This document shows positions 7,309 through 35,257 of a stretch of 52,500 nt of DNA, piece after piece (the first letter of the stretch is position 1; the number at the start of each line of letters is the position of its first letter). Below the pieces are notes generated by a model, which was given only the letters and a program-made list of their open reading frames with translations, was not told the DNA's origin and ran no database searches. Position numbers and translations under genes: made by a program. The DNA lies in assembly GCA_020072925.1 (NCBI GenBank), contig JAIQGA010000026.1, positions 1-52,500 on the forward strand, in the 5' to 3' direction. The DNA is from Terriglobia bacterium. GTDB lineage: Bacteria; Acidobacteriota; Terriglobia; UBA7540.

Positions 7309-7330
7309 GAGGGTTTTTCAGCATCCTGCT

Positions 7331-7410
7331 GAAGTTAGAAGTCGAAAGCCGCCACCGCGGCTCTCGGTTTCCTGGCTTTCAACTTTCGACTTTCGACTTT
7401 TGACTTGGCC
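7331..7410. repeat. Inverted heptad array g (at 3' end of HAD gene)
   Basis: The right arm holds CTTTCAA, CTTTCGA, CTTTCGA, CTTTTGA and CTTGGCC (7376-7410). The left arm holds GAAGTTA, GAAGTCG and AAAGCC (7331-7350), inverted relative to it. The centre is about 25 bases and carries no gene. The whole unit lies inside the 3' end of the HAD gene and supplies its stop codon (7335-7337). Confidence 0.75.
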
Positions 7411-8078: not shown

Positions 8079-8147
8079 CGAAGATTTTCCTGTCTGGGAA
8101 TTGTTTTTCATCTAATGAACTTTAATCCTTTCAATACGCTATTAATG

Positions 8148-8268
8148 GTGAATAGTGAATAGTGAATTGAGAACAGCGGGACCTTGGGACCAAGGACAAA
8201 TCTAATCTTGCACTGTAAACCCCGAAGTCTGGCAATTCACTATTCACAATTCACTATTCACTATTACG
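8148..8268. repeat. Inverted heptad array c (empty form)
   Basis: The left arm has GTGAATA, GTGAATA and GTGAATT (8148-8168). The right arm has AATTCAC, TATTCAC, AATTCAC, TATTCAC and TATTACG (8234-8268), the inverted complement. A centre of 65 bases holds only a small CCTTGG/CCAAGG stem and no gene. It sits between the ligase and HAD genes. The right arm contains the ligase stop codon (TAA, 8264-8266 read on the minus strand). Confidence 0.85.
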
Positions 8269-9605: not shown

Positions 9606-9682
9606 GCTGTCAGCAGTCAGCTTTCAGCTATCAGCAAACATGGACTTTTCTCGCTGATTGCTGACGGCTGATAGCTGACCGC
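9606..9682. repeat. Inverted heptad array e (empty form)
   Basis: The left arm has GCTGTCA, GCAGTCA, GCTTTCA and GCTATCA (9606-9633). The right arm has TGATTGC, TGACGGC, TGATAGC and TGACCGC (9655-9682), the inverted complement of consensus GCNNTCA. The loop is about 21 bases. It separates the glycosyltransferase remnant from the ligase gene. Confidence 0.85.
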
Positions 9683-9687
9683 TTCTT

Positions 9688-10796: not shown

Positions 10797-10806
10797 GGGC
10801 GTAACC

Positions 10807-10883
10807 AGAAGTCAGGAGTCAGAAGCCAGGAGTCAGAAGAAAAGAACAGCGTTACTGAGAACTGATTACTGACCACTGAGAAC
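10807..10883. repeat. Inverted heptad array f (empty form)
   Basis: The left arm has AGAAGTC, AGGAGTC, AGAAGCC and AGGAGTC (10807-10834). The right arm has TGAGAAC, TGATTAC, TGACCAC and TGAGAAC (10856-10883). The arms share an inverted CTGA/TCAG core every 7 bases. On the minus strand the right arm reads GTTCTCA, GTGGTCA, GTAATCA, GTTCTCA, the same consensus GTNNTCA as array a at 21994. It separates the ketosynthase and glycosyltransferase genes. Confidence 0.8.
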
Positions 10884-19382: not shown

Positions 19383-20591
19383 ATGGCGAACAACAATCAC
19401 CACAAGAAGCGGCGGCGTTGGATACTGGCGGCGGTTGCCGGCGTCATCCTGGTCGGCGGCGGATTCGGCATCGCTGCGGCACTGAAACCCAATCATTCGA
19501 TTGATCCCTCGAAACTGGCGGAAGTCACGAAGGGAGATATTGCCCGCTCGGTCGTGGCCACCGGCAAGATTGAGCCCCTGGCAAAAGTCGAGGTGAAATC
19601 CAAGGCCAGCGGGATCGTGGAAAAAATCTTTGCGGACTATGGCGATCACGTCAAGCAGGGCCAGGTGCTGGTGGAGCTCGACAAGGAACAACTGCGGGCG
19701 CGCGTCGCGGAGGCTCGGGCGAACTTGCAAGCGGCGGAGGCTGCTGTGCAGTCCGCCGAAGCAACCTACGAGCGCAATGTCGTGGACGCCCAGGGTCCTG
19801 ACTTGCCCTTCTTGAAAGCGACGGTCGAGCGCGATCGGAAGCTGGCGGCCGACGGGCTGATTTCCGCCTCGGTGATGGAGGATGCCGACAAGGCCTACCA
19901 GCTCGCGTTGAACAAGCAGATGTCCGCGCTGCGCAACGTGGCGGTCAGCCGCGCCGAAGTCGCCCGCGCGAACGCCCAGGTGGCCCAGTCGCAAGCCGCC
20001 CTGGACAGCGCGGAGGAGGATTTCAACAACTCCACCATCGTCAGCCCCATGGACGGGCTGGTGCTCTCGCGCGATGTGGAGGTCGGCGATGCGGTGAGCT
20101 CGATCCTGGTGCTGGGTTCGCAGGCTACGCTGGTCATGACGCTGGGCGATGTCAGCGAAGTCTACGTGAAAGGCAAAGTGGATGAGGCCGACATCAGTAA
20201 GGTTTACATTGGCCAGCCTGCGCGCATTGTGGTGGAATCCCTCAAGGACAAGAAATTCGAGGGGAAGGTCACCAAGATCTCTCCCCTGGGTGTCGAGAAA
20301 GACAACGTCACCACCTTCGAAGTGCGTGTTTCCATCCAGAACCCTACCGGTGAGCTCAAAGCCAACATGAGTGCCAATGCGGAGATCATCCTTCAGGAAA
20401 AGCACAACGTGCTGCTCGTTCCCGAGGCCGCGGTCATTTACGACAAGGAGCGCCACACGTCCATCGAAACTCCCGACGCGGGCTCGAAGACGGGCCGCAA
20501 GAAACTGGCCGTGAAGCTCGGGATCTCCAATGGCGTCAAGACCGAGCTGGTCGAGGGCCTGAAAGAAGGGCAGCAGGTCGTACTGCAATGA
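19383..20591 (+). CDS. MacA-like periplasmic adaptor (membrane fusion protein)
   Basis: The protein has 402 residues from ATG 19383 (AGAAGG just upstream); an in-frame TTG at 19338 is less likely. A single N-terminal anchor (WILAAVAGVILVGGG) follows basic KKRRR. Lipoyl half-motifs are at TGKIEPLAKVEVKSKASG and STIVSPMDGLVLSRDVEVGDAV. They flank an alpha-hairpin coiled coil (about 110-215) rich in Ala/Glu, then beta-barrel and membrane-proximal domains. It should link an inner-membrane MacB-type transporter to an outer-membrane channel. Two permease genes follow. Its TGA stop lies inside the first unit of heptad array d. Confidence 0.88.
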   Translation: MANNNHHKKRRRWILAAVAGVILVGGGFGIAAALKPNHSIDPSKLAEVTKGDIARSVVATGKIEPLAKVEVKSKASGIVEKIFADYGDHVKQGQVLVELDKEQLRARVAEARANLQAAEAAVQSAEATYERNVVDAQGPDLPFLKATVERDRKLAADGLISASVMEDADKAYQLALNKQMSALRNVAVSRAEVARANAQVAQSQAALDSAEEDFNNSTIVSPMDGLVLSRDVEVGDAVSSILVLGSQATLVMTLGDVSEVYVKGKVDEADISKVYIGQPARIVVESLKDKKFEGKVTKISPLGVEKDNVTTFEVRVSIQNPTGELKANMSANAEIILQEKHNVLLVPEAAVIYDKERHTSIETPDAGSKTGRKKLAVKLGISNGVKTELVEGLKEGQQVVLQ

Positions 20592-20680
20592 TGAATGCTG
20601 AATTATGAATGATGAATTGAGCGCTATCGAATTTTATCAGTTGGATTTGCGGTCATTCATCATTCTGAATTCATAATTCA
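20588..20680. repeat. Inverted heptad array d (empty form)
   Basis: The left arm has ATGATGA, ATGCTGA, ATTATGA and ATGATGA (20588-20615). The right arm has TCATTCA, TCATTCT, GAATTCA and TAATTCA (20653-20680). Read as TGAATNN on one side and NNATTCA on the other, the arms are inverted complements. The centre is about 37 bases with no gene. It separates the adaptor from the first permease and supplies the adaptor stop codon (20589-20591). Confidence 0.85.
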
Positions 20681-20721
20681 GCATTTTTCTCCGTCTCGAT
20701 TTACCTTTTGCGAGTTGGGTC

Positions 20722-21981
20722 ATGATTTTCAAAGACCTCGTTGCCGACACGGTCCGGACGCTCTGGTCGCACAAGCTGCGCACCTTTCTGACGATGTTCG
20801 GAATCGCCTGGGGCATCATCTCCATCACCCTGATGATCGCCGCGGGCGAGGGCCTGCGCGTGGGCCAGGAGAGGCAGCAGGAAACTTTCGCGAAAGACCT
20901 GATGATTGTGTTCGGCGGACGAACCAGCATGCAGGCCGGCGGGCTGCGCGCCGGGCGCGAGACCACCTGGCGACAGCCGGACGTGCCGGTGGTTCAGCAA
21001 GAATCCAGCGCCTGCCGGTACGTGCTGCCCGAGCTCGGGCGCGGCAACCTCAGCGTGCACAGCCTCTACAACAATGGCTCACCACTCGTTACGGGGTCGC
21101 TCCCGCCCTTCGCGGAGATCCGCTCGATCAGCGTGGAAGCGGGGAGATTCTACGATTGGGGCGACGAGCAACAGGCGCGCCACGTCGCTTTCCTCGGCAG
21201 CAACATCAAGAAGCAGCTCTTCGCGACGCGCTCCGCACTCGGCGAAACCATTCTCATCAACGACATCCCCTTTACGGTGATTGGCGTCATGGCCACCAAG
21301 GATCAGAACAGCAGCTATGACGGCTGGGATGTTGACAAGGTTTTCATTCCTTTCAGCACGATGATGAAGGATTTCCCCCCCAAACCACCCTTGCTCTCCA
21401 CCAGCATCGACCACCTGCTCGTGGTGCCGAAATCCCTCGACGACCACGAGCCCTGCAAGTGGCAGGTGCGGCGCGCGCTCGGGCGTCTGCACAATTTCGA
21501 TCCGCTTGACAAGGAAGCGGCGCCCATCTGGGACACCGTCGAGATGGCCAAGGCGTTCACCAAGCTGATGGACGCGATGCAGTACTTCCTCGGCGCCATC
21601 GGCATCACCACGCTCCTCCTGGGCGGCATCGGCGTGATGAACGTGATGCTGGTCGCGGTGCGCGAGCGCACGCGCGAGATCGGCGTGCGCAAAGCCGTGG
21701 GCGCGAGCGCGCGCTCCATCCTGAGCCAGTTCTTTATCGAGGCATTGATCATTGTTTTCCTGAGCGGAGGCTTGGGGATGGGGATTGCCTATGGGCTCTG
21801 CGCGTTGGTGAACCTGGCGCCGATGCCGCCGTTTTTCGCCGGCATGCTGCCGACCTGGCAATCCGGCGTGGTCTCTTTCGCAGTCCTGGGGAGTATTGCC
21901 GTGCTTTCGGCGCTCTATCCGGCCCGCCGCGCCGCCACCGTCGATCCCATCGAGGCGCTGCGGTATGAGCCGGGGGGATAA
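20722..21981 (+). CDS. MacB-type ABC transporter permease (first)
   Basis: The protein has 419 residues. It has an N-terminal membrane segment after LRTFLTMFGIAWGIISITLMIA and a periplasmic domain (about 45-280). Three C-terminal segments follow, beginning with LLLGGIGVMNVMLVAVRERTREIGVRKAVGA, and the typical tail DPIEALRYEPGG. There is no nucleotide-binding domain. It follows the MacA-like adaptor through heptad array d and precedes a second permease. Two different permeases could form a heterodimer, as in LolC/LolE, with an ATPase supplied in trans. Confidence 0.9.
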   Translation: MIFKDLVADTVRTLWSHKLRTFLTMFGIAWGIISITLMIAAGEGLRVGQERQQETFAKDLMIVFGGRTSMQAGGLRAGRETTWRQPDVPVVQQESSACRYVLPELGRGNLSVHSLYNNGSPLVTGSLPPFAEIRSISVEAGRFYDWGDEQQARHVAFLGSNIKKQLFATRSALGETILINDIPFTVIGVMATKDQNSSYDGWDVDKVFIPFSTMMKDFPPKPPLLSTSIDHLLVVPKSLDDHEPCKWQVRRALGRLHNFDPLDKEAAPIWDTVEMAKAFTKLMDAMQYFLGAIGITTLLLGGIGVMNVMLVAVRERTREIGVRKAVGASARSILSQFFIEALIIVFLSGGLGMGIAYGLCALVNLAPMPPFFAGMLPTWQSGVVSFAVLGSIAVLSALYPARRAATVDPIEALRYEPGG

Positions 21982-21993
21982 AGGAAGTCGCCA

Positions 21994-22398
21994 GTGGTCA
22001 GTTATCAGTTCTCAGTATGGGGGTTGAATGCAGAATTTCAAGGCGCTCAAAGTCTGGGAAAAGGGCCACGCACTAACCCTCGATGTCTATCGCGCCACAT
22101 CGCGCTTCCCCAAAGACGAACTGTATGGACTGACCAGCCAGATACGGCGGGCCTCTGCTTCGATCCCAGCCAACATTGCAGAGGGCTGCGGAAGAACCGG
22201 CCGCGCCGAACTTGGCAGGTTCCTCCAGGTATCGATGGGTTCGGCAAGCGAACTCGAATATCATCTGTTGCTTGCCCATGACCTGAAATTTCTCGATGAC
22301 ACGGACTATCGGAAGCTAGAGGGTCAAGTCGTCGAAGTGAAGCGCATGTTGGCTTCGTTTGTGTTGAAACTGAAAACTGACAACTGAGGACTGATAAC
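21994..22398. mobile_element. Inverted heptad element a carrying a four-helix-bundle gene
   Basis: The left arm is GTGGTCA, GTTATCA, GTTCTCA and GTATGGG (21994-22021). The right arm is TGAAAAC, TGACAAC, TGAGGAC and TGATAAC (22371-22398), preceded by a 6-base TGAAAC. Consensus GTNNTCA and TGANNAC are exact inverted complements with free central dinucleotides. The arms enclose one intact gene (22028-22387), whose last codons and stop lie in the right arm. The unit splits two permease genes of one operon. Element status is inferred from layout and from the second example at 33399-33909. Confidence 0.65.
22028..22387 (+). CDS. Four-helix-bundle protein (23S rRNA IVP / S23 family)
   Basis: A 119-residue protein beginning MQNFKALKVWEKGHALTLD, with SQIRRASASIPANIAEGCGR in the middle. 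This is the TIGR02436-type signature (Q-[IM]-R-R-A-x-x-S-[IV]-P-A-N-I-A-E-G). Relatives are found as the protein encoded in 23S rRNA intervening sequences and as the Avd accessory of diversity-generating retroelements; biochemical role is unknown. It has no operon logic with the surrounding ABC permeases. It sits between inverted heptad arms, and its stop codon is in the right arm. A homologue in the same arrangement is at 33488-33856. Confidence 0.9.
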   Translation: MQNFKALKVWEKGHALTLDVYRATSRFPKDELYGLTSQIRRASASIPANIAEGCGRTGRAELGRFLQVSMGSASELEYHLLLAHDLKFLDDTDYRKLEGQVVEVKRMLASFVLKLKTDN

Positions 22399-23652
22399 TT
22401 GTTACGAGAAATTCTAGTACAGGCTTGGATCTCCCTCCGCCGCCAGCCGCTGCGGAGTTTCCTCACCATGCTGGGGATTGTCTGGGGCATCGCGGCGGTG
22501 GCGCTGCTGCTGGCCTATGGCAAAAGTCTCCGCTCGGTGGTCGTAGCGGCGTTTGACGCCTTCGGAAGAGGCGCGATCGTAGCCTGGCCCGCTCAGACCA
22601 GCCAGCAGGCGGGAGGCGAGCGCGCCGGTAAGCACGTGGTGTTCGAGAAGGAAGACGTCGAAATGGTCAAGGCGGAAGGCACGCTGGTCAAGAACATCTG
22701 CATGGAGACCGTACGCTGGCTCGGCATTTCCTACGGAGACCGCATGGCCAACACCGCCATTCGTGGCGCCTGCCCCGCCTATGGCGAGATGCGCAACGAG
22801 GTCCCGAGCCAGGGTCGCTGGATTGGCCCGGACGACATGCTGGAGCGGCGCCGCGTGGTCTTCCTGGGATACCGCCTGCGGCAGAAGCTTTTCAGCGAGC
22901 GCCCCGCGGTGGGCGAAACCGTGCGGATTTCCGGCGTGCGCTTCACCGTCATCGGCACGATGGACTTGAAGATTCAGGACAGCAATTACTTCACCAGCGA
23001 CGACGAATCCGCGTGGATTCCCTACTCGACTGCAGGCGACCTCTGGAACACTCGCTATGCAAATGTTCTGGTGTTCGAACCCATTGCGCCACAATTCGAA
23101 AAACAGGCCATGCAGCAATTCCGCGCCGCGATCGCCAAGCGCCAGCGCTTCTCGCCTACGGACGAACGCGCTATCATGATGTTCGGACGCGAACAATTCC
23201 GCCCCATCATCGATGGCATCACGATTGGCTTTGAAGTGCTCTTCACTTTCGTGGGTGCGCTGACCCTGGGCATTGGCGGCGTCGGGCTGATGAACATCAT
23301 GCTGGTTGCCGTCGACGAGCGCATCCGCGAAATCGGTCTGCGCCGCGCCCTCGGCGCGCGGCGCCGACACATCCAGGCGCAGTTCCTCTCCGAAGCCCTG
23401 GTCTTGACCTTCCTGGGCGGCATCTTCGGCATTCTCATGGCCTATGCGCTCTCGGCCGCCATCGGCACGCTGCCCCTTTACGGCCCTCTTTTCGAAGACA
23501 CCTCCGGCAAGGGTGACATTCATCTCTACATTTCGCTGGGAACCGTGGGTGTTTCCACAGCAATCCTCATCGTGGTCGGCCTGCTGAGCGGCCTCGCCCC
23601 TGCGGTGCGCGCTTCCCGGCTCAATCCCGTCGAAGCCCTGCGGTACGAATAA
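22399..23652 (+). CDS. MacB-type ABC transporter permease (second)
   Basis: The protein has 417 residues with the same architecture as the preceding permease: LRSFLTMLGIVWGIAAVALLLA, a periplasmic domain, then LGIGGVGLMNIMLVAVDERIREIGLRRALGA and tail NPVEALRYE. The start is TTG 22399, immediately after the last heptad unit. The AGGA in unit TGAGGAC lies 8 bases upstream and could serve as ribosome-binding site. No ATPase domain is present. It probably works with the MacA-like adaptor and the first permease; substrate unknown. Confidence 0.88.
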   Translation: MLREILVQAWISLRRQPLRSFLTMLGIVWGIAAVALLLAYGKSLRSVVVAAFDAFGRGAIVAWPAQTSQQAGGERAGKHVVFEKEDVEMVKAEGTLVKNICMETVRWLGISYGDRMANTAIRGACPAYGEMRNEVPSQGRWIGPDDMLERRRVVFLGYRLRQKLFSERPAVGETVRISGVRFTVIGTMDLKIQDSNYFTSDDESAWIPYSTAGDLWNTRYANVLVFEPIAPQFEKQAMQQFRAAIAKRQRFSPTDERAIMMFGREQFRPIIDGITIGFEVLFTFVGALTLGIGGVGLMNIMLVAVDERIREIGLRRALGARRRHIQAQFLSEALVLTFLGGIFGILMAYALSAAIGTLPLYGPLFEDTSGKGDIHLYISLGTVGVSTAILIVVGLLSGLAPAVRASRLNPVEALRYE

Positions 23653-32604: not shown

Positions 32605-33402
32605 ATGTCCAAGAAACATAAAGAGACGATTCAAAAACAATTCACCAAGACCGTCGAGGCCTTTGCGAAATATGCGGTCCGCGATACGCCCGAAATTCTC
32701 GCCGAGAAGGTGGAGTTCGTCAAACCTCAGGCGACGGACTTGGTCCTGGACGTCGCGTGTGGGCCGGGAGCGTTTCCTCTGGCGCTCGCGCCGCGCGTGC
32801 GGTTCGCGATGGGAATTGATTTGACCTTCGAGATGCTGCGCCAGTCGCGGGCCTTCCAGGCCGAGCGGCAGATTGCCAATGCCGCCTTCGTGAGTGGCGA
32901 GGCCGAACAACTTCCCTTCCCCGATGGGACTTTCAACCTGGTCACCTGCCAGTGCTCGTTTCATCACATCCCGAAACCCGAGCTGGCGCTGAAAGAAATG
33001 CTGCGCATCACGCGGCCCGATGGCCGATTGTTTCTCATCGATACGGTGGCTCCGGAAAGCGATGCGAAGTTCGAACTCCATAACAAGATTGAAAAACTTC
33101 GGGACCCCTCACACACGCTGTCGCTGCGCCTGACGACCTACCTCCGGATGTTCGAAGAAGCCGGCGTCGAAGTGACCCGCCAAGGCCTGCGGCGCCGCCC
33201 GCGCTCGTTCAACCAGTGGATGCTGCGCGCGGGGCTCGAACCCCACCACAAGCGCTATCAGGAAACCCGCCGCCTGCTGGAGGACTCCATCGCCGGCGAT
33301 CGCGCCGGCTTCTCCGCCCGGCCCCAGGGGGAGGATATTGAGATCGTTCATAATGAGGGAATGTTTTTATTGGCACGACAGGCAGAGGGATGGGAAAAGT
33401 AG
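32605..33402 (+). CDS. Class I SAM-dependent methyltransferase (UbiE/type 11)
   Basis: The protein has 265 residues from ATG 32605 (MSKKHKETIQKQF); a TTG at 32566 is possible. Motif I is VLDVACGPGAFPLALA at about 45-60, the acidic loop GIDLTFEML, motif II LPFPDGTFNLVTCQCSFHHI, and motif III RPDGRLFLIDTVAPE. It is related to UbiE-like methyltransferases; substrate unknown. The TAG stop (33400-33402) lies in the first heptad unit of element b. It is divergent from the FGE-fold gene. Confidence 0.87.
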   Translation: MSKKHKETIQKQFTKTVEAFAKYAVRDTPEILAEKVEFVKPQATDLVLDVACGPGAFPLALAPRVRFAMGIDLTFEMLRQSRAFQAERQIANAAFVSGEAEQLPFPDGTFNLVTCQCSFHHIPKPELALKEMLRITRPDGRLFLIDTVAPESDAKFELHNKIEKLRDPSHTLSLRLTTYLRMFEEAGVEVTRQGLRRRPRSFNQWMLRAGLEPHHKRYQETRRLLEDSIAGDRAGFSARPQGEDIEIVHNEGMFLLARQAEGWEK

Positions 33403-33909
33403 ACGGTAGACGGCATACGGTATACGGGGAAGAAAACCAGTGACTGGAAGCGGAGGACGACACACCCGTACTGGAAAGGGGATAAAAATGGGTATTGAGA
33501 AATTTGAACAACTGGACGTTTGGCAAGAGGCTCACGCGCTGGTGTTAGAAGTCTACCGTGGGACTTCGAAGATGCCTTCAGAGGAGAAATTTGGTTTGGT
33601 CTCCCAGATGCGGCGAGCCGCAGTGTCTGTTCCTGCGAATATTGCAGAAGGATTCAAGCGTCGTGGTCAGGCTGATAGAACGCACTTCTACAATATAGCT
33701 CAGGCCTCTCTGGAGGAGCTGCGCTATTATTTCATCCTTTGTCGTGACCTGGGATACAAGTTGGAACACGCTGCCATTGCGACGCAGGCAGAACATGTAG
33801 CGCGCATGCTCTATGACCTTGTACATGCCGTTGAAGGCCGTCGACAAGCGGCGTGACTCCCGTTGGGGCGTAAGTCTGCCCCGCATGCCGTCTACTGTCT
33901 ACTGTATGC
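33399..33909. mobile_element. Inverted heptad element b carrying a four-helix-bundle gene
   Basis: The left arm is GTAGACG, GTAGACG, GCATACG and GTATACG (33399-33426). The right arm is CGCATGC, CGTCTAC, TGTCTAC and TGTATGC (33882-33909), which as reverse complement reads GCATACA, GTAGACA, GTAGACG and GCATGCG. The stops of both neighbours (methyltransferase TAG 33400-33402, permease TAG 33899-33901 on the minus strand) lie in the arms. One intact gene is enclosed (33488-33856). The heptad differs from element a but the layout is the same. Confidence 0.65.
33488..33856 (+). CDS. Four-helix-bundle protein (23S rRNA IVP / S23 family), second copy
   Basis: The protein has 122 residues from ATG 33488 with AGGGGA upstream. 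Core motifs: FEQLDVWQEAHALVLEVYR and SQMRRAAVSVPANIAEGFKR, then a long helix RTHFYNIAQASLEELRYYF. It matches the protein at 22028-22387 along its length but is clearly divergent, so the two are not a recent duplication. It lies between converging genes and within inverted heptad arms, with no metabolic link to either neighbour. Confidence 0.9.
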   Translation: MGIEKFEQLDVWQEAHALVLEVYRGTSKMPSEEKFGLVSQMRRAAVSVPANIAEGFKRRGQADRTHFYNIAQASLEELRYYFILCRDLGYKLEHAAIATQAEHVARMLYDLVHAVEGRRQAA

Positions 33910-35257
33910 TGGGCTGAAACGGCCACTCCCGCCGCACCCGCGCGCGCAGCATATAGGCAATCGTCCCAATCGCGAAAACGGCGGCGGCGAAGATCAGCGA
34001 TTTGCGTGCGGCCGTTCCCAGAACGTAAATCCACCCCAGCACTGAGATCATTCCGGGAACGGGATAGAGCCACATCCGAAAAGGCCGCGCGAGGTCCGGC
34101 GCACGGGCACGCAGCAGGAAAAACCCGATGGTCTGCGGCAGGTACTGAATCAGCACGCGGGTGGCAATCAAACTTCCAATGACTTCTCCCAGGTTCCCCA
34201 GGCTGAAAACCGAAGCGATAACGCCCAGCGTAATGAGCGAGACGTACGGAAATCCCCCTTTAGGATGCAGGCGGCCGAAGATGGGGAAGAAATTGCCGTC
34301 GAGCGCGGCGGCGTAAGGAATGCGCGAGTAGCCGAGCAGGAGTGAAAAAACCGAAGAAAATGCGATCCAGAGGAGCAGCGCGGTCATCAGCCTGCCCGCC
34401 GTGGGGCCTTCCAGGATTTCGATGTACGCCGAGGCAATGAAGGGACTGTGGATGGCCTCACGCCAGGGAATGACACTCAAAAAGGAACAGGTCATCAGAA
34501 CGTAGAGCACACCCACCGTCAGGATGGAAAAGAGTATGGCGCGCGGAATGGTGCGTCCCGGATCGCGGATTTCCTCGGCGAGATAGCAGACATTGTAATA
34601 TCCGAAATAATCATATAAGGCATAAAGCGTCGCGTGACCCAAGCCAGCGAAAAAGATCCAGTTGAGGTGGAAGGCCTGGGGAGGAAAATCGAAAAGTCGC
34701 GCCGCGCTCAGGTGCGGCAGGCCGGCCACCACAATCCACAGGCAGCCACCCAGGACGCCGGTGACCAGGACGAGCGAAAGGTTTCCAATTGTTCCGATGC
34801 GACGGTAGAGGAGCACAACCAGAAGGAGCGGAAACGCCGCCGCCACCAGCCGCACGCCCCACGGCCCCAGGTGCGGCAGGAGGAAGCGCAAGTATCCCGC
34901 AAAGCCGATGCTGCCGCTCGCCACCGAAAGGGGCGCCGAAAACATGATCTGCCAGACCATCAAGAAGGAGAGCCAGCGCCCCATGCGATGCGGCCCGTAG
35001 GCTTCGCGAAGATAGTTGTAGCTTCCGCCCGCTTTGGGCAGCGCGGCGCCGAGCTCCGACCACACCAGGCCGTCGCAAAACGCCAGCAGCGCGCCCACAA
35101 GCCAACCGAGCATCGCCTGCGGCCCGCCCATGGTGGCGAGGAAGAGGGGGATGGTGATGTAAGGGCCAATCCCCACCATGTCGGTGATGGCCAGCGCCGT
35201 GGCCTGGAGTAGGCCCAGCTCGCGCCGCAGTTGGGATGGCGGGTTGGCCAGGGTCAA
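33899..35257 (-). CDS. APC-family amino-acid/polyamine permease
   Basis: The protein has 452 residues from TTG 35257 with GAGGA 8 bases upstream. About 12 hydrophobic segments are visible. TM1 has the unwound substrate motif DMVGIGPYITIPLFLA and TM2 LGWLVGALLAFCDGLVWSELGAALPKAGGSYNYL, typical of APC secondary transporters. The C-terminus ends WPFQPSIQ with its stop in the heptad arm at 33899-33901. It probably imports an amino acid or amine. It converges with the four-helix-bundle gene. Confidence 0.9.
   Translation of the reverse strand: MTLANPPSQLRRELGLLQATALAITDMVGIGPYITIPLFLATMGGPQAMLGWLVGALLAFCDGLVWSELGAALPKAGGSYNYLREAYGPHRMGRWLSFLMVWQIMFSAPLSVASGSIGFAGYLRFLLPHLGPWGVRLVAAAFPLLLVVLLYRRIGTIGNLSLVLVTGVLGGCLWIVVAGLPHLSAARLFDFPPQAFHLNWIFFAGLGHATLYALYDYFGYYNVCYLAEEIRDPGRTIPRAILFSILTVGVLYVLMTCSFLSVIPWREAIHSPFIASAYIEILEGPTAGRLMTALLLWIAFSSVFSLLLGYSRIPYAAALDGNFFPIFGRLHPKGGFPYVSLITLGVIASVFSLGNLGEVIGSLIATRVLIQYLPQTIGFFLLRARAPDLARPFRMWLYPVPGMISVLGWIYVLGTAARKSLIFAAAVFAIGTIAYMLRARVRREWPFQPSIQ

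Follow-up and report, generated by a model that had tools for sequence, protein, structure and literature searches.

S23 genes lie between inverted heptanucleotide arrays in a dispersed, probably mobile bacterial element

The DNA analyzed here (the window, a whole stretch of 52,500 nucleotides from a Terriglobia bacterium) contains an HlyD-MacB operon in which a small gene separates two permease genes (Table 1). The sequence-only reading had described this as an S23/IVP-type gene between two MacB-type permeases, and profile searches confirmed the description: the gene matched PF05635 (23S_rRNA_IVP) with 129.1 bits (cut-off 33.8) and TIGR02436 ('four helix bundle protein') with 124.8 bits (cut-off 24), and MacB_PCD and FtsX domains were found on both sides. 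The S23 protein also matched the solved structure 2gsc (XCC0516; five chains) in a phmmer search (E 1.4e-17). The gene had further been said to lie between arms of the form GTNNTCA and TGANNAC. This was borne out, the left array reading GTGGTCA GTTATCA GTTCTCA and the right array TGAAAAC TGACAAC TGAGGAC TGATAAC. The S23 gene ends within the right array, its TGA stop codon falling inside a heptad, and the TTG start of the downstream permease coincides with the edge of the same array.

Table 1. Position of the host operon genes and heptad elements within the window
Feature	Position	Strand	Description
Gene-less opposed heptad element	8142..8265	.	Unit GTGAATA, 60-bp core
Gene-less opposed heptad element	9606..9683	.	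Unit TCAGCNN
Opposed heptad arrays, units match only in part	10806..10879	.	TCAGAAG left, TCAGTNN right
Gene-less opposed heptad element, HlyD gene / permease 1 spacer	20587..20685	.	AATGATG... / ...TCATTCA
Upstream MacB-type permease, host operon gene 1	20722..21981	+	MacB_PCD + FtsX
Left (5') heptad arm	21990..22016	+	Unit TCAGTTN (= GTNNTCA), three heptads
S23 / 23S_rRNA_IVP four-helix-bundle gene, 119 aa	22028..22387	+	Profile match; PDB homologue 2gsc
Right (3') heptad arm	22364..22399	-	Unit NAACTGA (= TGANNAC), four heptads; reverse complement of left arm
Downstream MacB-type permease, host operon gene 2	22399..23652	+	MacB_PCD + FtsX
Second S23 heptad element	33399..33911	+	Gene about 33488-33856

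Loci were scored for the joint 7-bp periodicity of both flanks and their reverse complementarity. The window locus scored 42, against a maximum of 36 for dinucleotide-shuffled flank pairs (n=441) and of 37 for control flanks taken 1 kb further out (n=120). A null that paired arms from different loci was dropped, since the presence of heptads in both arms inflates it. Both spacers of the HlyD-MacB operon carry a heptad element, because a gene-less one precedes the first permease and the S23 element follows it. The second S23 element of the window has arms of another word, GTAGACG (33399-33427, with the reverse complement at 33886-33911). A lone CTTTCGA array was also seen at 7376-7406, with a merely degenerate opposed partner near 7330.

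The genome (6.5 Mb in 456 contigs) carries 15 PF05635 genes. Opposed heptad arms were present at all 14 that could be scored, so the expectation that would have undone the earlier proposal, namely that most family members in this genome lack heptad flanks, was not realized; the 15th gene is cut by a contig end and its right array is visible. At each locus one word occurs in both arms in opposite sense, and the words vary from locus to locus (TTAGGGA, CTCGGGA, TCAGTTN, GGAGGTC, TCAGCNN, GTAGACG, GGAGTCC, CTCGAAA, GTGAATA, GTAAAAG and others), a few loci having a period of 8, or of 15 (= 7+8). Arms were likewise found at 26 of 29 scorable S23 loci in relatives, 22 of 27 on IMG/VR contigs and 69 of 77 in a broad scan covering Bacteroidota, Pseudomonadota, Planctomycetota, Chloroflexota, Bacillota, Spirochaetota, Gemmatimonadota, an archaeon and others. 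Over all unique S23 genes, 153 of 169 (~90%) had arms and ~9% had none that could be detected; a period of 7 was dominant, 8 came next and others were rare. Arms at about 90% of S23 genes across phyla indicate an association that belongs to the gene family as such.

The association was also evident when the arrays were taken as the starting point. Opposed heptad pairs 300-500 bp apart enclosed an S23 ORF in 11 of 12 cases, the exception overlapping a neighbouring S23 element; S23 was the only cargo family encountered between arms. Opposed arrays fall into two size classes, one with a core of 0-200 bp and no gene and the other with a core of ~350-500 bp and S23. The order of heptads was only weakly mirrored between arms (mean z 0.42), and at locus L385 it was not mirrored. 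Since copy numbers per arm range from 2 to 17 (means 5.3 and 4.7), a rule of five repeats per arm, one for each subunit of a pentamer, is not claimed.

The junction between the two permease genes was then compared among relatives. Orthologous permease pairs without an insert, which the sequence-only reading had suggested looking for, were found with 0-26 bp between the genes (G041, G053, G056, G060 and G007; just 0-4 bp in the first three). The S23 element lies in operon sense in the window genome and in G002, G003, G017, G035 and G020, and in the opposite sense in G004, G015 and G016 (three of nine elements inverted), an arrangement that recombination across the inverted arms could explain. 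Arms accompanied the gene in every relative read with the gene at this site, so the armless copies that would have told against the proposal were not encountered. In G019 and G034 the junction holds arrays without S23, each with another word. A tree of the permease-site S23 proteins does not separate one ancient insertion from repeated insertion. The same junction in G013 (L048) carries a different inverted-repeat insert of 155 bp, free of heptads.

Two further junctions showed the same three states, empty, gene-bearing and gene-less. Between nuoC and nuoD in Rhizobiaceae, empty sites measure 0 to about 60 bp and S23 elements about 470-490 bp, with words that differ between genomes; one genome (G101) has a gene-less array, and unrelated small genes at this junction, which serve as natural negative controls, have no heptads. 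The acyl-CoA dehydrogenase and 3-hydroxyisobutyrate dehydrogenase genes of Mesorhizobium are contiguous in about 80 of 146 species. This junction, when empty, consists of 28-35 bp without heptads (30 of 30 read); when filled, it carries an S23 element with the word TAGGCAG in all of about 17 species read, the number of copies per arm varying from 2 to 17 between species and the first heptad providing the stop codon of the host gene in several of them. The Mesorhizobium S23 orthologues had a mean dN of 0.050 and a mean dS of 0.70, and the ratio of 0.07 indicates that the protein is maintained under strong purifying selection. Presence/absence polymorphism at a single site, by which MITEs and transposons are recognized, was thus seen at three junctions. 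A target-site duplication could not be read from empty and filled sites at any of the three because the intergenic flanks are too diverged, and no recent gene-bearing transposition was caught because the S23 copies within the window genome are diverged. Among the other guests at nuoC-nuoD (L266, L270, L271, L277, L278 and L280) are a GFA-like enzyme and small membrane ORFs, all heptad-free, and at the Mesorhizobium junction L383 (G223) and L387 (G193), from two species, share another repeat, an insert of 89-90 bp with inverted halves and no heptads.

The heptad word co-varies with the S23 protein lineage. Among loci sharing no flanking gene, heptad similarity rose from 3.4 at 30-40% protein identity to 4.8 at 60-70% and 5.4 at 70-80%. 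S23 pairs of at least 55% identity at unrelated sites had a heptad similarity of 4.35 against a permutation null of 3.61 +- 0.06, a set that may include a few same-site pairs, some Rhizobiaceae flanks being too short to flag as shared. The Mantel correlation between protein and heptad was 0.19 (null maximum 0.12). Lysobacteraceae were taken as an independent set, with arms at 27 of 30 loci, and here three S23 subfamilies have one word each (GGGAATC/GGGATTC, CGGGACY and GAGGAAC), heptad similarity being 5.49 within and 4.06 between subfamilies (p < 2e-4). The GGGAATC/GGGATTC subfamily is that of XCC0516 (PDB 2gsc). Rehm 2015 (PMC4692102) reported strong enrichment of the GGGAATC heptad in Xanthomonas genomes, each of which has 70-75 convergent inverted pairs, and made no link to S23. 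GGGAWTC doublets had a median of 50 per genome in 64 S23-positive Lysobacteraceae and of 0 in 85 S23-negative ones, and the reversed pattern was near zero; the p-value of the difference (Fisher odds ratio 13, p 2e-11) overstates independence because the genomes are related. At least 10 doublets were still present in 10 of the 85 S23-negative genomes. The GGGAWTC repeats are thus tied to XCC0516-type S23.

Gene-less arrays were more abundant in S23-bearing genomes, with densities that refer to sampled sequence and not to whole genomes. In the window genome, G052 and G044, heptad segments numbered 18-19 per 100 kb, and about 448 kb of sequence held 29 arrays that had an opposed partner. Four S23-free genomes from other families of the same class had 1-2.5 segments per 100 kb, and their 378 kb held no short opposed pair. 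The relation is not strict, because S23-bearing G059 and G023 (14 and 3.7 segments per 100 kb) showed no short opposed pair in 160 kb. Gene-less words were closer to the S23 words of their own genome than to random S23 words. For each of three genomes in which a studied junction holds a gene-less array, the S23 was sought: in G259 (GTGAATG) and G101 (CGGCAGT) the array has the word of an S23 element at another site, and in G264 it differs from the word of the sole S23. The G264 array (L372) is a palindrome without a core, in which AGTGAGT heptads abut ACTACTG heptads.

The S23 gene is the only ORF of the element, and no nuclease, transposase, reverse transcriptase or recombinase was found in it. 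A Y1 transposase was considered as an obligatory partner and rejected, since its count correlates with that of S23 (rho 0.53), yet G051, G006 and G011 have S23 without Y1. REPIN-RAYT systems comprise dispersed short inverted repeats and a cognate gene at one or a few loci, itself bearing the repeats, in an apparent trans relationship. RAYTs are Y1 transposases and REPs have one fixed palindrome in common. The S23 elements resemble these systems in combining dispersed inverted-repeat elements, a cognate gene and an apparent trans relationship, but the place of the RAYT is taken by S23, a protein without a known catalytic domain, and the word at the ends is a lineage-specific tandem 7-mer. With MITEs and insertion sequences they share a short insert, terminal inverted repeats, polymorphic presence and gene-less versions, and they differ from them in having no transposase, no readable target-site duplication and ends made of lineage-specific tandem repeats.

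These results point to an undescribed class of dispersed genetic element that is probably mobile, measures ~0.4-0.5 kb and has a single S23/IVP gene enclosed at its two ends by inverted arrays of a word of 7 bp (sometimes 8 bp). We consider it probable that S23 is the cognate protein of this minimal element, recognizing its own terminal heptads and acting in trans on gene-less copies. The structures of the relatives 2gsc and 2rld each contain five chains, and the XCC0516 protein has been described as a homopentamer (cited in PMC4990558); an S23 homopentamer would bind directly the word that the arms of its element repeat, and through this recognition would maintain the element, drive its copying and help it to spread. 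In trans it would spread gene-less arrays with the same word, which would persist where S23 is present because the protein would act on all arrays carrying its word. Since the element encodes no transposase, movement would probably depend on host replication or repair enzymes or on a transposase provided in trans, and such mobility may be the reason for the dispersal of the heptads. Tandem arrays would tolerate changes in copy number, and inverted ends would allow both presence/absence and flips. The earlier proposal that the protein has a role in forming or moving the heptad element gains support by association only, from protein-heptad co-variation, gene-less satellites and presence/absence at single sites. 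A more general form of the idea, which is put forward tentatively, is that S23 proteins are readers of a tandem word, possibly one per pentamer subunit, in minimal mobile elements found across phyla, where divergence of the protein re-specifies the terminal word (a one-protein, one-heptad code).

The main rival is a purely regulatory or RNA-processing role. S23 could bind heptads in RNA, in its own 5' leader and in other transcripts, and control translation or processing, the arrays being dispersed regulatory sites and not a mobile element. In gene sense, 103 loci have a G-rich 5' arm and 22 a C-rich one, the element is located beside start codons within transcribed operons, and the predicted fold of the window element transcript pairs the arms in a hairpin more stable than shuffles (z -3.1); translational control has also been proposed for TAACTGA repeats (MacGregor 2015, PMC4679880). 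On the other hand, the inverted arms, presence/absence at single junctions, both orientations in one operon and the placement of gene-less pairs at arbitrary operon junctions resemble what insertions would produce, and gene-less elements have no strand bias (16 vs 12). We regard a post-transcriptional regulatory module as an unlikely explanation, although it is the alternative that fares best.

The same predicted pairing of the arms would suit an RNA-level intervening sequence, in which the stem is cut by RNase III and the insert removed as in the 23S rRNA, S23 being incidental or a processing helper. The 23S rRNA IVSs of Coxiella and Leptospira share with the window element the protein family, a single small ORF, terminal inverted repeats and a length of about 430 bp. 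The Coxiella IVS has an S23 ORF, a terminal stem of 28 bp that RNase III cleaves, and tandem GACAGAT heptamers upstream of S23p (PMC4990558), and an S23 ORF within terminal inverted repeats with heptamers nearby is also what the window element shows. The rRNA IVSs, however, lie inside an rRNA gene and are known as RNA-level inserts, whereas the window element lies between two permease genes, and in many genomes the elements studied here are flanked by protein genes, a location in which tolerance would not require excision; they have a heptad arm at either end and come with gene-less satellites. None of 20 S23 loci scanned was in rRNA, and excision leaves unexplained the heptad periodicity, the protein-heptad co-variation and the gene-less satellites, so this explanation appears improbable. 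The Coxiella insert would fit as a member of the same class of element that landed in rRNA.

It is very doubtful that the element is a retroelement, with a reverse transcriptase copying its RNA in trans and S23 in the role of Avd, the accessory protein of diversity-generating retroelements. Avd has a four-helix-bundle fold related to S23, and similarity between 4DWL and 2GSC has been noted (PMC10053308), but the window S23 reached 23.8 bits with the Avd profile NF033474, below the equivalog cut-off of 80. Avd works with a reverse transcriptase and TR/VR repeats, and the window element has none. A reverse transcriptase is ruled out as an obligatory partner, since 9 of 18 S23-rich relatives had no RVT_1 match, and S23 and reverse transcriptase counts were hardly related across genomes (rho 0.22, p 0.10). 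Equally remote, and already disfavoured, is an origin by slippage and template switching alone, in which replication slippage would create heptad microsatellites, foldback would create inverted pairs and S23 genes would hitchhike. It agrees with the variable copy number in Mesorhizobium and with reports, cited in PMC4679880 and PMC4692102, that in many bacteria no long SSRs are commoner than heptanucleotide repeats, but it does not account for arms at about 90% of the members of one gene family, for a word that tracks the protein, for the lack of heptads at other small genes in nuoC-nuoD or for the absence of opposed pairs from S23-free genomes.

The cognate-protein reading supplies PF05635, a very common family of 'hypothetical' proteins, with a function-bearing context, and offers a common answer to two long-standing puzzles, why heptanucleotide repeats are so abundant in bacterial genomes and where 23S rRNA intervening sequences come from; a single protein and its 7-letter word make both open to testing. 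Should binding be confirmed, the pairs of protein and heptad described here would constitute a ready-made recognition code across lineages, and a one-protein, one-heptad code, if true, would account for many bacterial heptanucleotide repeats as well as for the 23S rRNA insertions. No literature joining S23 with heptads, apart from a passing remark on the Coxiella 23S rRNA insert, was found in a search that took in neither subscription papers nor most preprints. Intergenic heptad arrays have been published for Xanthomonas (GGGAATC) and Nostoc (GGGGAYT; both Rehm 2015, PMC4692102) and for Beggiatoaceae (TAACTGA; MacGregor 2015, PMC4679880), where they were read as G-quadruplexes or regulatory sites and linked neither to S23 nor to mobile elements. 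The Xanthomonas, Nostoc and Beggiatoaceae arrays are the same kind of intergenic array as those of the S23 elements, and the TAACTGA repeats of Beggiatoaceae, Cyanobacteria and Bacteroidetes (PMC4679880) have the word of the right arm of the window element (NAACTGA).
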